NCBI GenBank assembly: GCA_020723935.1
Contig: DYHY01000002.1
Span: forward strand, 18,476 to 25,270
From: Candidatus Micrarchaeum sp.
Lineage (GTDB): Archaea > SpSt-1190 > DYHY01
DNA length: 6,795 nucleotides
Reading direction: 5' to 3'
Part shown: piece by piece, positions 1 to 6,795 of the stretch
Position numbering within the stretch: the stretch's first letter is position 1
How the letters are laid out: each line of letters starts with the position of its first letter
Notes under the pieces: generated by a model
Told to the model about the DNA's origin: nothing
The model's input: only the letters and a program-made list of their open reading frames with translations
Database searches by the model: none
Made by a program: the position numbers and the translations under genes

Positions 1-231
1 TTGGCAACATTCTTCTGACGGATTATCGTTGCCACGGACCTCCCTTCAGGTCGGCTCCTCGCCACGTTCTTCTGACGGAACTGGTTGTGGCGATGAACCT
101 CCCTTCAGGTCGGCCCTTGGCAACATTCTTCTGACGGATTATCGTTGCCACGGACCTCCCTTCAGGTCGGCCTTTGGCAACATTCTTCCGAGGGCCTGCT
201 GTCGCCGCGGACCTCGCCGCCGCTAGGCCCC
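1..231. repeat. Tandem array of four 57-59 bp units with internal inverted repeats
   Basis: Four head-to-tail units lie at about 1-57, 58-116, 117-173 and 174-231. The first begins at the window edge, so the array may continue to the left. Units 1 and 3 are almost identical, unit 2 is diverged in the first arm, and unit 4 is the most diverged. Each unit has a first inverted repeat (unit 1: TGGCAAC at 2-8 with GTTGCCA at 28-34) and a second one (GACCT at 37-41 with AGGTC at 48-52 around a CCCTTC loop). The TTCTTCTGACGGA segment between the arms of the first repeat and the CCCTTC loop are conserved in units 1-3. There are no unique spacers, so this is not a CRISPR array. The units are not all multiples of three long, which argues against coding repeats. 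The function is unknown. Confidence 0.9.
1..231 (-). ncRNA. Putative structured repeat RNA, or structured 3' UTR of the lipoprotein gene
   Basis: Differences between units keep the stems paired. In unit 2 the first stem is TCGCCAC (59-65) with GTGGCGA (87-93), which means two compensated pair changes relative to unit 1 (3/33 G-C to C-G, 6/30 A-T to C-G). Three single changes (96/111 in unit 2; 179/203 and 211/228 in unit 4) give G-U wobbles only if the RNA is read from the minus strand, and A-C mismatches if read from the plus strand. One pair at a stem end (175/207) favours plus. The minus strand is also the strand of the lipoprotein gene, whose stop codon lies 14 bases before the array in the direction of transcription. 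I see no separate TATA box, so read-through from that gene is the simplest source. No known RNA family is recognised. Confidence 0.45.
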
Positions 232-244
232 TTGCTACTTTCCT

Positions 245-1189
245 CTAGCCGCCCGGGCTCTCGGAGACGGTGACCTTCTTCGTCGCTATCTTGAAGACTG
301 TGAAGCCGGAGGCCGCGAAGCGAGCTGAATAGGTCTCCTGCGGGACGGAGATCTGCGGCGGCGCGACGGTCGCGCGCAGGACCGAGCCGTTCTTGGCGCT
401 TATGTCCCAGTCCGAGGCCTGCAGGCAGGTGTATCCGGACTCGCAGTTGGGGACGATCGTCGAGAAGCCGCCCTTGCTCGCGACGGCGAAGACGACCGGT
501 ATCTGGAGCTGGGCGCTCGAAACCTCGAAGTCGCGCAGGGATTCTATCCCCTCGGTGTCGCTCTTCCTCGCGGTGAAGGAGAGAAGTATCGGGAACTCCT
601 TCCCCGCCTGGGCGGGCTGGTTCTGGAACTCCACGTGGAGCCTGACCGGGCCCATGGAGACGTCCTTGGATTCCGCCTTGGCTCCGGGGGAGGTCCTCGC
701 GAACTCGTCGGGCGAGAGGACCTTGATTGACTCGTAGGCGCCGGAGACGTCGAAGGAATACTGGACCTTCACCGAAACCTCCTGGGTGAAGCTAGTCTGG
801 GTTGAGTCGGCCCAAGAGGACCTGTCCTTCGCCGTGACGGTGCAGACCACCTGGCGCGCCTCGCCGGGGGCTATGTCCCCGACGAAGACCTCGGGGCACC
901 CGTCGATGTTGGGGCCGAAGTTGTAGAATACGGCGTTCACGTTCCTGAGGGAGACAGGCCCCGCGTTCGATATGTCCGCGACGAGGTCCGCCTGGCCCCC
1001 GGCCGGGAAGCTCTGGGCCGAGGAGAAGGTTGAGGCTATCAGGAGGATGTTCTCCGTGTTCCCAGTTTGCTGGCCCCCGCCGCCGGTGGAGCCGCCCGTC
1101 CCGGATGTCGCGCATCCGGCGAGGATGACTGAGGCGGCTACGAGGATCGTGATTGTCAGGAGGCCTGGCTTGCTTGTGGAGTGTCCCAT
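245..1189 (-). CDS. Secreted lipoprotein with two Ig-like/beta-rich regions, function unknown
   Basis: The 314-residue product starts with a lysine-containing n-region, a hydrophobic stretch (about residues 10-24) and a lipobox LAGC ending at Cys26, so it is probably lipid-anchored on the outside of the cell membrane. A Gly/Ser/Thr-rich linker follows (about 27-46). Two beta-rich regions come next, at about 60-160 and 180-310. The first has the ADLVADISNAGP type of start seen in CARDB/NEW3-like Ig domains, but this is a resemblance by eye only. Cys98 and Cys116, and Cys249 and Cys255, could form disulfides. An upstream in-frame ATG at 1225 would add 12 residues, but it overlaps the GATAAAT TATA box. 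The ATG at 1189 gives a proper signal peptide and is preferred. The stop is TAG. The gene follows the membrane-protein gene on the same strand after 64 bases but seems to have its own promoter. No catalytic motif is visible. Confidence 0.85.
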   Translation of the reverse strand: MGHSTSKPGLLTITILVAASVILAGCATSGTGGSTGGGGQQTGNTENILLIASTFSSAQSFPAGGQADLVADISNAGPVSLRNVNAVFYNFGPNIDGCPEVFVGDIAPGEARQVVCTVTAKDRSSWADSTQTSFTQEVSVKVQYSFDVSGAYESIKVLSPDEFARTSPGAKAESKDVSMGPVRLHVEFQNQPAQAGKEFPILLSFTARKSDTEGIESLRDFEVSSAQLQIPVVFAVASKGGFSTIVPNCESGYTCLQASDWDISAKNGSVLRATVAPPQISVPQETYSARFAASGFTVFKIATKKVTVSESPGG

Positions 1190-1223
1190 TTTGCTTCTTC
1201 TGGCCCCTTCCCGGCTTCCTTGC

Positions 1224-1230
1224 ATTTATC
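1224..1230 (-). promoter_or_regulatory. TATA box of the lipoprotein gene
   Basis: Read on the minus strand the sequence is GATAAAT, the same core as the AMP phosphorylase promoter. Its centre is near 1227, so transcription should begin near 1201. That gives a leader of about 12 bases before the ATG at 1189, with a purine-rich GAAGAAG stretch in it that may help ribosome binding. The box overlaps the alternative ATG at 1225, which argues against that start. Confidence 0.55.
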
Positions 1231-1253
1231 TCTAACCCTCCGCACGGCCCGCC

Positions 1254-2489
1254 CTAGCGCTCGAGCCTCACCGCGAGGTCCCCCACGCGGAAGACTCCGG
1301 AGCCCGTCGAGCGGAAGACGAGCGTGTTCTGGCCGAAGACGGCCTGGCCGTCCCGGAAGAAGAGCCTCACCTTCCCCGCCTTGGCGTCGGCCTCGTAGAG
1401 TATGTTCTCCCGGTCGCCTATGAGCGCCACCTGTAGGGGCCCGGGGGAGGATATCTCGGAAATCTCGAACTCGAGCGCCCCCTTCAAGCTCCCGGCGCGC
1501 ATCCTGGCAATGTCGTCCTTGGAAAGCGTGAACGAGACCGCCGGGGTGCCCTTGGCGCTCGTGGAAGTGAAGACTATCACCTCGGAGGACGATATCTCCA
1601 TCAAGCCGTCGCCCTCGCCCTCCAGGCCGAACGATATTGTGTTGTCGTCCGAGACGCCGGAAAGGGACTTGGAGAAGTCGACGACGACCGGGAGCGTCCC
1701 GGCGCCGGGGGAGCCCTTCCAAATGGTGGCGTTGTTTATCCTTATCCCGAGTATCGCGCTGTCGGGGCTCGCCCGCGTTATCGTGAAGACGACGCGGCCG
1801 AGGACGAACGCCGAGACCTCGTCGCGCGAGAGGGCGAAGGGGAACGCCTGGGAGGTGGCGTTGAGGGTGTCGGGCCTGACCGATATCGAGGAGAGGGTGT
1901 AGATGGACGGGCTCCAGATCTTCCAGCCCGAGGAGGTGGACGAGAACTGGAGGACGTTGGGGCCCGCCTCGAAGGAGCCCGTCTTGTTCGCGAGGGAGAC
2001 TTGCATCGCCTCCCCGGCCCGCGGGCTCCCCGTCCAGACCAGGTCCCCGTTGAGGCGCAGCAGGAGGAGGCCCAGGCCGTTGGTGTCCTCAACCTTGAAA
2101 TAGACCGTCACCGGCCCGTCGTCGGATTCGTGGTTGAAGGAGACCTCGCGCTCCTGGCTCGTCAGTATCCCGCGGGCGATGTCGTCTGGGCCCGCGTCGA
2201 CCGCGAGGGGCGCGACGTCGCGCACGGAATTGAGCTTGACGCGGCCAAGGTAGACGTGCCTGAAGCCGCTCCCGGAGTTGCCTCCGACGAGGCCGACGTC
2301 CCCCTGGAGGAGCACGTCCTTGGGGATGAGGGCGGGGAGGCTTATGTCGCTGAACGGGAACTTCCTGTCGGGCGCGTTGAAGGCGACGAGGACGACGAGG
2401 AGCAGGACCGCTAAGGCGAGGAGGAGGACCATGACGAAGCCGAAGCCCCTGCGTCCCCGTTCGGGTAGCCTGCCCGTCTCTGCCGCCAT
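1254..2489 (-). CDS. Single-pass membrane protein with three repeated beta-sandwich-like modules
   Basis: The 411-residue product has a short basic N-terminus (RGRR at 11-14), one strong transmembrane helix at about 16-37, and a long region that probably lies outside the cell. That region holds three related modules at about 100-205, 215-308 and 318-410. Each opens with a DDIARG, RDEVSAF or KDDIARM helix-like segment. A strand pattern follows: G-V-hydrophobic-F/Y; then, in the first two, an LRLNG or IRINN turn with W-T/K-G-S-P; then a late F-S/G-hydrophobic strand, preceded in modules 1 and 3 by GPNVL or GQNTL. The fold looks like an all-beta domain such as a jelly roll, perhaps for binding carbohydrate or protein, but no family is recognised. 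A TTG start at 2546 would place the promoter inside the gene. The ATG at 2489 lies 30 bases from the TATA centre and fits a near-leaderless mRNA. The lipoprotein gene follows on the same strand, which suggests a shared surface role. Confidence 0.85.
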   Translation of the reverse strand: MAAETGRLPERGRRGFGFVMVLLLALAVLLLVVLVAFNAPDRKFPFSDISLPALIPKDVLLQGDVGLVGGNSGSGFRHVYLGRVKLNSVRDVAPLAVDAGPDDIARGILTSQEREVSFNHESDDGPVTVYFKVEDTNGLGLLLLRLNGDLVWTGSPRAGEAMQVSLANKTGSFEAGPNVLQFSSTSSGWKIWSPSIYTLSSISVRPDTLNATSQAFPFALSRDEVSAFVLGRVVFTITRASPDSAILGIRINNATIWKGSPGAGTLPVVVDFSKSLSGVSDDNTISFGLEGEGDGLMEISSSEVIVFTSTSAKGTPAVSFTLSKDDIARMRAGSLKGALEFEISEISSPGPLQVALIGDRENILYEADAKAGKVRLFFRDGQAVFGQNTLVFRSTGSGVFRVGDLAVRLER

Positions 2490-2514
2490 TTGCAAGGGGA
2501 GATGCTGCCGGCAT

Positions 2515-2524
2515 TTTATATAAA
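2515..2524. promoter_or_regulatory. Palindromic TATA box shared by two divergent genes
   Basis: TTTATATAAA is a perfect palindrome and the only good TATA box in the 94-base gap between the membrane-protein gene (start 2489, minus) and pelota (start 2584, plus). With the usual archaeal distance of about 26 bases, transcription would begin near 2493 leftward (leader about 4 bases) and near 2546 rightward (leader about 38 bases). No clear BRE favours one direction. Confidence 0.65.
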
Positions 2525-2568
2525 GGTTGCCGGGAATGAGGCCCAAAGGCGCCGCGGGGCGCCCGTGC

Positions 2569-2572
2569 GGAG
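2569..2572 (+). promoter_or_regulatory. Possible ribosome binding site of pelota
   Basis: GGAG lies 11 bases before the pelota ATG, inside the predicted leader. A closer AAGG at 2577-2580 is too near the start for normal spacing. The match to the anti-Shine-Dalgarno sequence is short, so support is modest. Confidence 0.35.
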
Positions 2573-2583
2573 ATGCAAGGTAA

Positions 2584-3645
2584 ATGAAGGTCGTCTTCTA
2601 CGACGAGCGCAAGGGCATCCTCAAGCTTGCCATGGAGACCGAGGACGACCTCTGGCATGCCTCGAACATCATCACCGAGGACGGGAAGACCGTCGCCAAG
2701 ATGCACACCGTGCGCAAGGTGAAGAAGCAGCTTTCGGGTGACAGGGTCGAGGCGGAGAAGGTCTCCGTCACTCTGTCGATCAGGGTCGAGCGCGTCGAAT
2801 ACCATCCGTTCTCCGGAGCGCTCAGGGTGACCGGGAAGGTGTGCGGCGAGAACGAGGTAGCGCCCCTAGGGAGCTACCACACCTTCTCCCTGGAGCCGGG
2901 CGCCGTCGTAACGGTGGAGAAGGAGGGCGGCTTCGGGCAGCTGGACTGGGAGAGGATCAAGGCTTCCAGGAGGAACCAGCCCAAGGTCCTCGTCCTCCTC
3001 ATCGACAGGGACGAGGCGGAGTTCGCCACCGTCACGGCCGAGGGCGTCAACTGGGGCGCGCAGGTGAGATCAAGCCTCCCGCCGAAGGCCGAGAAGGGCT
3101 ACGAGAGCGCGATGAAGGAGTATTTCGGGAACGTCCTCTCGGCGATGCGATCGCTCTCCGGCAAGGCGGAGGCGATAATTGTCGCCGGGCCCGGGAACGC
3201 GAAGGAGAATTTCGAGGAGTTCTGTGAGGGCAAGATCGAGTTCTCGGTGCAGAACGCGTCGTCCGCGACGAGGGCCGCTTTGAAGGAGGTCCTCGCTAGC
3301 GGCGTGTCCAAGATCCTGGAGGAGACTAACGTCGCCAAGGAGAGCGAGATCGTCGAGGAGCTCTTCGCCAGGCTCGGGACGGGCCCCGACAAGGTCGCCT
3401 ACGGCATGTCGGCGGTGGGGGCCGCGGCCGAGGCGGGGGCGGTGGAGAGGATTATGGTCACGGACGGCCTCATCAAGAAGGCGCGCCTTGAGGGAAACTA
3501 TCCGCAGCTGGAGTCGGCGATCAAGGCGGTCGAGGCCGGCGGCGGAAGGGTGAGCATAATCTCGGAGAAGCACGAGGCGGGCGGGAAGCTATCGGGCCTC
3601 GGGGGGATCGCGGCGGTCCTCAGGTACGCTTTTTCCCGGTCCTGA
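2584..3645 (+). CDS. pelA: Pelota (Dom34 family), ribosome rescue factor
   Basis: Pelota is a paralogue of release factor aRF1. With the archaeal partner aEF1A (aABCE1 then splits the subunits) it recognises stalled ribosomes with an empty or blocked A site in the cytoplasm. The 353 residues match the usual archaeal length. The N-terminal Sm-like domain (about 1-130) has DDLWHASNII at 21-30, VRKVKK at 43-48, LRVTGKV at 80-86 and GSYHTFSLEPG at 96-106. The central domain (about 133-260) starts with VLVLLIDRDEAEFATV. The C-terminal domain (about 265-350) ends with the family signature HEAGGKLSGLGGIAAVLRY at 330-348. There is no GGQ motif, as expected for Pelota and unlike aRF1. The ATG at 2584 aligns with the family's MKV start. 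The gene is divergent from the membrane-protein gene. I am confident of the family. Confidence 0.97.
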   Translation: MKVVFYDERKGILKLAMETEDDLWHASNIITEDGKTVAKMHTVRKVKKQLSGDRVEAEKVSVTLSIRVERVEYHPFSGALRVTGKVCGENEVAPLGSYHTFSLEPGAVVTVEKEGGFGQLDWERIKASRRNQPKVLVLLIDRDEAEFATVTAEGVNWGAQVRSSLPPKAEKGYESAMKEYFGNVLSAMRSLSGKAEAIIVAGPGNAKENFEEFCEGKIEFSVQNASSATRAALKEVLASGVSKILEETNVAKESEIVEELFARLGTGPDKVAYGMSAVGAAAEAGAVERIMVTDGLIKKARLEGNYPQLESAIKAVEAGGGRVSIISEKHEAGGKLSGLGGIAAVLRYAFSRS

Positions 3646-5873: not shown

Positions 5874-6795
5874 TCAGTCCTCTTTCCTCCTGACATACCT
5901 ACCGCGGCTCTCCACTTTCTTGAGCCGGGCCGCTACCTCGGGGAACTTCGTCTCGTACGCGGAAAGGATCCTTGCGAAAGCCTCGGCGGCCTCCCCGGTG
6001 TGCGTGCTGGCGAGCGCCTCCTCGAGGACGTGGAGGTCCACCGCCCGGTCCTCCGCCGAAGCCGAGAACCTCGCGAGGCCGAAGTCTATGAGATGGACCT
6101 TCCCGCCCGAAAGGACCATGTTCGACGTCGTAAGGTCCCCGTGGATTATCCCGGCCGAGTGCAGGCGGATCACTTGGTCGGCGATCCGCTCGGAAAGCCC
6201 GACGTCGAAGGCGGCCTTTAGCGTCGGCCCGTCGAGGAACTCCATCCTGACGACCGCGCCCCTCTCGTCGGAGGAGTGGATGCGGGGGACGTTGACTCCC
6301 GCGGCCTTCGCCCGCTTGAGCACGCGGGCTTCGAGGCGCGTCCTCTGGAGGCGCAGCTTCGAATCGATCGCAGCGTGCCGGTATCCCTTGGCCACGCGGG
6401 TCTTGATGAGCGTCTTCTCCCCCTCGCGCTCGATGACCGCTTCCGCCCCCCGCGCTATCACGCCGCGGGGAAGGATCCGGAAGCGTACGGCCTTGACTAG
6501 CGTCGTCGGCGAGGGGGCGGAGCCGTAGAATCTCCTGAACTCTTCGGCGATGAGCTCGCGCGAGCCGGAAAGCTCGTGGCCCTCCCAGTCCGCCTCGGAA
6601 AGCTTGGCGAACTCCACCTCCCGCGCGCAGGTTATCTCCACCCTTGCGAACTCGCTCCCGTCCTTCCTGAGGAGCGGGACGACGTCGCCCGCGCGAAGAT
6701 CCTTCTCGTCGTTCAGGCGCAAGGTCGCCGTCTTTCTTCCCGAAAGTATGAGCTCCAGGAGGCTTTCGGAGAAGCGCAGGTATTTGCCGTGCGGC
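5874..6795 (-). CDS. bud32: ASCH domain fused to KEOPS kinase/ATPase Bud32 (5' end outside the window)
   Basis: Bud32 is the small atypical kinase/ATPase of the KEOPS complex, which with Kae1 makes the t6A37 modification of tRNAs. 306 codons are visible. From the right edge the frame reads YLRFSESLLELILSGRKTAT, then AGDVV, AREVEFAKLSEADWEGHEL and FRRFYG, the pattern of an archaeal ASCH domain (about 6785-6470). A full Bud32 kinase follows: RGAEAVIE, Lys at 6402-6404 (TLIKTRV), YRHAAIDSKL and EARVLKRAKAAGVNVPRI, catalytic HGDLTTSN at 6120-6143, IDFGLA with DFG at 6078-6086, EDRAVDL at 6033-6053, and the terminal SRGRY-RRK tail. All key residues are present. A TTG at 6720-6722 is a possible start only on paper, because it would cut the SGRKTATLRL motif in two. 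No other start codon is visible upstream, so the start lies off the edge. Many euryarchaea carry Kae1-Bud32 fusions; here the visible N-terminal partner is ASCH. Confidence 0.93.
   Translation of the reverse strand, partial: PHGKYLRFSESLLELILSGRKTATLRLNDEKDLRAGDVVPLLRKDGSEFARVEITCAREVEFAKLSEADWEGHELSGSRELIAEEFRRFYGSAPSPTTLVKAVRFRILPRGVIARGAEAVIEREGEKTLIKTRVAKGYRHAAIDSKLRLQRTRLEARVLKRAKAAGVNVPRIHSSDERGAVVRMEFLDGPTLKAAFDVGLSERIADQVIRLHSAGIIHGDLTTSNMVLSGGKVHLIDFGLARFSASAEDRAVDLHVLEEALASTHTGEAAEAFARILSAYETKFPEVAARLKKVESRGRYVRRKED

Follow-up and report, generated by a model that had tools for sequence, protein, structure and literature searches.

A tandem array of two-hairpin units between convergent genes in a small archaeal genome, probably an ordinary lineage-specific hairpin repeat

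REPs have been reported across bacteria and archaea (PMC12306157), and the convergent REPs of bacteria mostly sit within 20 bp of the ORF ends on either side (PMC3733652). We analyzed a tandem array of hairpins in a draft archaeal genome (G000; 1.14 Mb, 47 contigs, 91% complete) whose placement, 14 bp from one stop codon, agrees with that of convergent REPs. The array occupies positions 1–230 of the window, the whole 6,795-nt stretch analyzed here (C17:18476–25270), which starts directly after a run of 100 Ns (L002 9877–9976) representing a scaffold gap. It adjoins this gap and is cut by it, and its four head-to-tail units (57, 59, 57 and 57 nt, in the order A-B-A-diverged) are those of the assembled side alone. 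TRF called a period of 57 with 3.3 copies over positions 1–188, and a fourth, diverged unit lies at 174–230, beyond that call; together with the unit alignment, this bore out a preliminary description of the locus as four units of two hairpins each. In window coordinates, the features are:

1–57, minus strand: unit 1 (type A), adjoining the scaffold gap; hairpin A stem 2–8/28–34, conserved loop segment 10–22, hairpin B 36–57
58–116, minus strand: unit 2 (type B, 59 nt); hairpin A stem 59–65/87–93 with two double-changed pairs, hairpin B 95–116
66–69/78–81, minus strand: inner stem of unit 2, GTTC/GAAC, present as first described
117–173, minus strand: unit 3 (type A), differing little from unit 1; hairpin A 118–150, hairpin B 152–173
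174–230, minus strand: unit 4 (diverged edge unit); hairpin A 175–207, hairpin B 209–230 with its inner pair changed from C-G to G-C
245–1189, minus strand: lipoprotein-like gene encoding 314 aa, counted from the ATG at 1189

Between the lipoprotein stop codon (247–245) and the end of the array (230) lie 14 bases, the spacing originally reported. This gene, which matches no Pfam or NCBIfam entry, has homologues in the related genomes G001, G005 and G006. Beyond the gap, a plus-strand gene resembling TIGR00375 (316 bits, slightly under the cut-off of 326.6) runs into it and, judged from its relative in G001, would stop about 20 bases inside. The array is thus flanked by two convergent genes whose 3′ ends face it, the TIGR00375-like gene on the plus strand and the lipoprotein-like gene on the minus strand, and is equally the 3′ flank of the former. 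Elsewhere in the window, the lipoprotein and an adjacent membrane-anchored protein (245–3645) lie beside pelota, in an order that G005 and G006 share and that G001 preserves at least in part, and neither protein matched a Pfam or NCBIfam family; at 5874–6794 the minus strand encodes the KEOPS kinase Bud32 carrying a fused ASCH domain at its N-terminus.

Read on the minus strand, each unit consists of hairpin B (22 nt), one base, and hairpin A (33–35 nt). Hairpin A has a 7-bp stem enclosing 19–21 nt, including a 13-nt segment, TCCGTCAGAAGAA, that is identical in units 1–3. Hairpin B is built from an outer stem GGGCC/GGUCC, a GA/GA internal loop, a 2-bp inner stem (CC/GG or GC/GC) and a four-base loop, which is UGAA in units 1–3, giving the pattern GGGCC-GA-NC-NNNN-GN-GA-GGUCC. 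The 18-nt core of hairpin B and the loop segment of hairpin A are both unchanged in units 1–3, and the stem between them varies. A putative kissing interaction between the two loops, CUGAAGGG with UCCGUCAG, was seen by eye. The 59-nt length of unit 2 breaks the reading frame and rules out a coding repeat.

Hairpin B recurs elsewhere in G000. Besides unit 4, whose hairpin B is the nearest in the array to the dispersed consensus GGGCCGAGCNNNNGCGAGGTCCG (one mismatch), four further sites match that consensus with at most one mismatch:

C31:21678: exact copy of hairpin B, between apparent divergent gene starts
C17:70680: copy with one mismatch, directly past the stop of a GlmS-like ORF
C17:96383: copy with one mismatch, at the contig end
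C29:18432: copy with one mismatch, in a hairpin-rich stretch that holds no convincing ORF

A control search with the reversed pattern returned three matches in total at up to three mismatches, and the pattern search found no copy of the consensus in G001. A looser hairpin B pattern was not informative (88 matches versus 57 in its control). The loop of hairpin A was not found dispersed in G000 in a loop search; a match with one mismatch on C1 was discarded, as it falls at the beginning of a methyltransferase-like ORF, and a covariance-model match at C29 37818–37890 was set aside as taking in sequence immediately 5′ of a start codon, including the Shine-Dalgarno-like GGTGAGGT.

Other repeats were observed in the same genome. 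The left end of C17 (1–267; L051 1–267) carries a hairpin-rich tandem array in which the 27-nt CATCCCCAGAGGGGGATGAAGTGGTAG alternates with spacers of two types to form a 97-bp dimer repeat, with an RNA fold z of −6.4 on the plus strand and no Rfam match. A GC-rich 82-bp tandem repeat runs off both the right end of C8 (L025 902–1087) and the left end of C9 (L034 1–128) and has GCGAGGTCCG in common with hairpin B. At C17:70640–70760 (L027 about 440–560), the last codons of the GlmS-like ORF (NLAKSVTVK) recur in diverged form past its stop, with the hairpin B copy between.

The dispersed copies bear on the register of hairpin B. The stem first proposed, ACCT/AGGT, is preferred by DNA energy parameters in units 2 and 3, but only two of its four pairs survive in unit 4 and in each dispersed copy. 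We replaced it with GGGCC/GGUCC, in which 92.9% of cells are retained and one pair occurs as either C-G or G-C. This comparison carries a caveat: the pattern used to collect or confirm the dispersed copies already contained the palindrome, except for the copy on C31, which the covariance model found first.

With the four units aligned on the minus strand, 94.6% of cells are paired in the two-hairpin structure, and the stems are preserved far better than by chance. When the 12 substitutions of unit 2 were placed randomly, all 14 pairs were kept with at least two double changes in 0.01% of cases (0.0001, about one in 10,000 trials), and random placement of the 16 substitutions of unit 4 gave a result as good as that observed in 0.27% (0.0027). 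As the preliminary description had stated, unit 2 exchanges two pairs of stem 1 on both sides (25-57, from G-C to C-G, and 28-54, from A-U to C-G) and leaves TTCTTCTGACGGA identical. Including pair 8-15, both-sided changes affect three pairs, a number that 31 of 500 column shuffles also reach, and independent both-sided events are few, at most about three.

As RNA, the array folds with an MFE z of −6.4 on the minus strand and −4.8 on the plus strand, ranking first and second, respectively, by fold z among 134 segment-strands (244 nt) from the surrounding 16.8 kb. Pairs that hold as G-U on one strand only give a mixed signal: three (3-20 in all units, 2-21 in unit 2 and 28-54 in unit 4) can form on the minus strand alone, and three (1-22 in unit 3, 2-21 in unit 1 and 24-58 in unit 4) on the plus strand alone, where a single plus-directed change had been counted before. 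Pair 3-20 is a constant G-U in eight of eight hairpin B copies, and this constancy together with the folding energy still favours the minus strand. Some constraint at the RNA level is suggested by this invariant G-U, by the conservation of the loops and by the stronger folding of the minus strand. Of the original proposal, a minus-strand RNA under selection for its structure, the structure-preserving change and the better minus-strand folding stand; the small number of events, the shuffles, the mixed G-U signal and the absence of the array from a relative weaken the rest.

That relative is G001, of the same family, in which the two flanking genes are direct neighbours in convergent orientation, their stops about 6 bases apart, and no array is present. 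Different genes follow the lipoprotein homologue in G005 and G006, where the covariance model found no match. Collection of homologous units from related genomes had been suggested as a test, and the search yielded no larger alignment: further arrays of the same kind were found neither in G000 nor in related genomes by DNA and covariance-model searches (61, 10 and 394 genomes), and about 390 other genomes gave no convincing relative. All genome-wide statements here are based on pattern and model searches. The two best foreign matches of the wide search apparently lie inside coding sequences, and a two-core pattern run against genome and viral collections gave three isolated, chance-like matches that showed neither structure nor tandem repeats. 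In agreement with the first reading, which knew of no matching family, Rfam returned no match above the gathering score (best sub-threshold E 3.3). It had also been argued that homologous units found only as scattered repeats lacking conserved pairing would speak against an RNA; hairpin B is indeed dispersed in G000, though its pairing is conserved.

We propose, with confidence that is about evenly balanced, that the array is part of a lineage-specific family of REP-like hairpin repeats, one locus of which was expanded into a tandem array between convergent genes, and that any function lies in the structure of a transcript's 3′ end. Absence from the syntenic site, dispersal of hairpin B only in G000, placement at convergent 3′ ends and the other arrays at contig ends fit a lineage-specific palindromic repeat family, and the array is a real but probably ordinary hairpin repeat of this kind. 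The A-B-A order of units probably arose by unequal exchange or slippage. Scans for tRNAs, terminators and promoters gave nothing relevant, two promoter-like sites being bacterial-type matches within the repeat itself. No T-run of at least five occurs in positions 1–1250, and the terminator scan found no terminator-like site in the array, which makes read-through plausible. Minus-strand read-through from the lipoprotein gene would place a chain of stable hairpins at the 3′ end of the mRNA, where, by analogy with convergent REPs of bacteria, they may protect against exonucleases and reduce read-through between the facing genes. Such a structure at the 3′ end of the lipoprotein transcript would be the simplest role, if there is one. 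As it stands, the locus adds an uncharacterised lineage-specific repeat family; if transcribed, it would represent the expansion of a palindromic repeat at convergent 3′ ends in a small-genome archaeon whose phylum is poorly sampled, and would offer a test of how to tell selection on RNA structure from template-switch mutation.

Counting against this proposal, mutation and not selection could have produced the stem changes. The strongest alternative is a mutational by-product devoid of RNA function, a quasi-palindromic minisatellite in which arms and units exchange sequence by template switching or gene conversion and the stems thereby stay matched; we regard this as possible, at perhaps half the weight of our proposal. 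Template switching can introduce multibase compensatory changes in one event, and both makes and mends stems (PMC8794818); the two double changes of unit 2 fall in the same stem and could represent a single such event. The 55-nt identity of units 1 and 3 shows a recent duplication, and the array's absence from G001 also suits a by-product. It accounts less well for the constancy of TCCGTCAGAAGAA and the hairpin B core beside a variable intervening stem, for the better folding of one strand, and for the invariant 3-20 G-U, which template switching would be expected to shift toward Watson-Crick pairing.

The same contrast of a conserved loop with a stem that varies yet stays paired, combined with the minus-strand z, would suit a multi-unit small RNA of the minus strand, in which the hairpin A loop would be bound repeatedly by a protein or a target RNA. 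The lack of an Rfam relative, the absence from G001 and about 390 other genomes, the mixed strand signal and a promoter scan that gave nothing relevant make this improbable. Slightly more doubtful still is a new tandem RNA of archaea built from repeated domains of two hairpins, in which the invariant 13-nt loop segment and the GA/GA hairpin would bind protein or RNA several times per molecule. Least probable is an element acting at the DNA level, with an IS200/IS605-, REP- or attC-like enzyme, either transposase or recombinase, recognizing the single-stranded hairpins and an incidental RNA fold: its imperfect palindromes, dispersed copies and presence in G000 but not G001 are offset by a search that found no Y1 transposase family member in the 91% complete genome, the lack of gene cassettes between units, and the unremarkable folding of single units as DNA (z −1.3 to −2.0).

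Among known systems, tandem structured RNAs such as CRISPR arrays and archaeal H/ACA and C/D guide RNAs also have repeated structured units of similar length. The units here are contiguous, however, and repeat as a whole, lacking the variable spacers of a CRISPR array, and they show no visible ACA box or paired C and D boxes. Integron attC sites were rejected by eye, as there are no cassettes and no matching core boxes. Prokaryotic satellites and minisatellites (PMC6749651) are likewise non-coding tandem repeats with units longer than 30 nt, mostly at one locus; the array differs in that its units are hairpins that stay paired in spite of substitutions. It does not formally qualify as a REP, on account of tag and transposase: by eye, the units have no GTAG, and CGTC occurs only within the hairpin A loop and not at a palindrome end, and the REP-associated Y1 transposase (PF01797), found by the control in five of 14 genomes, was not found in G000. 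Typical REPs also have far more copies than the roughly four dispersed ones found here, where hairpin B alone is dispersed, and the array differs from REPs in its direct head-to-tail units, each of two different hairpins. Both hairpins nonetheless fall within the REP/BIME size range for an imperfect intergenic palindrome (about 20–40 nt), and with the REP/BIME elements, including the convergent GTAG and CGTC families (PMC3733652, PMC12306157), the array shares short intergenic palindromes that are both dispersed and clustered, lie near convergent 3′ ends, differ in presence among related genomes and can fold as RNA.
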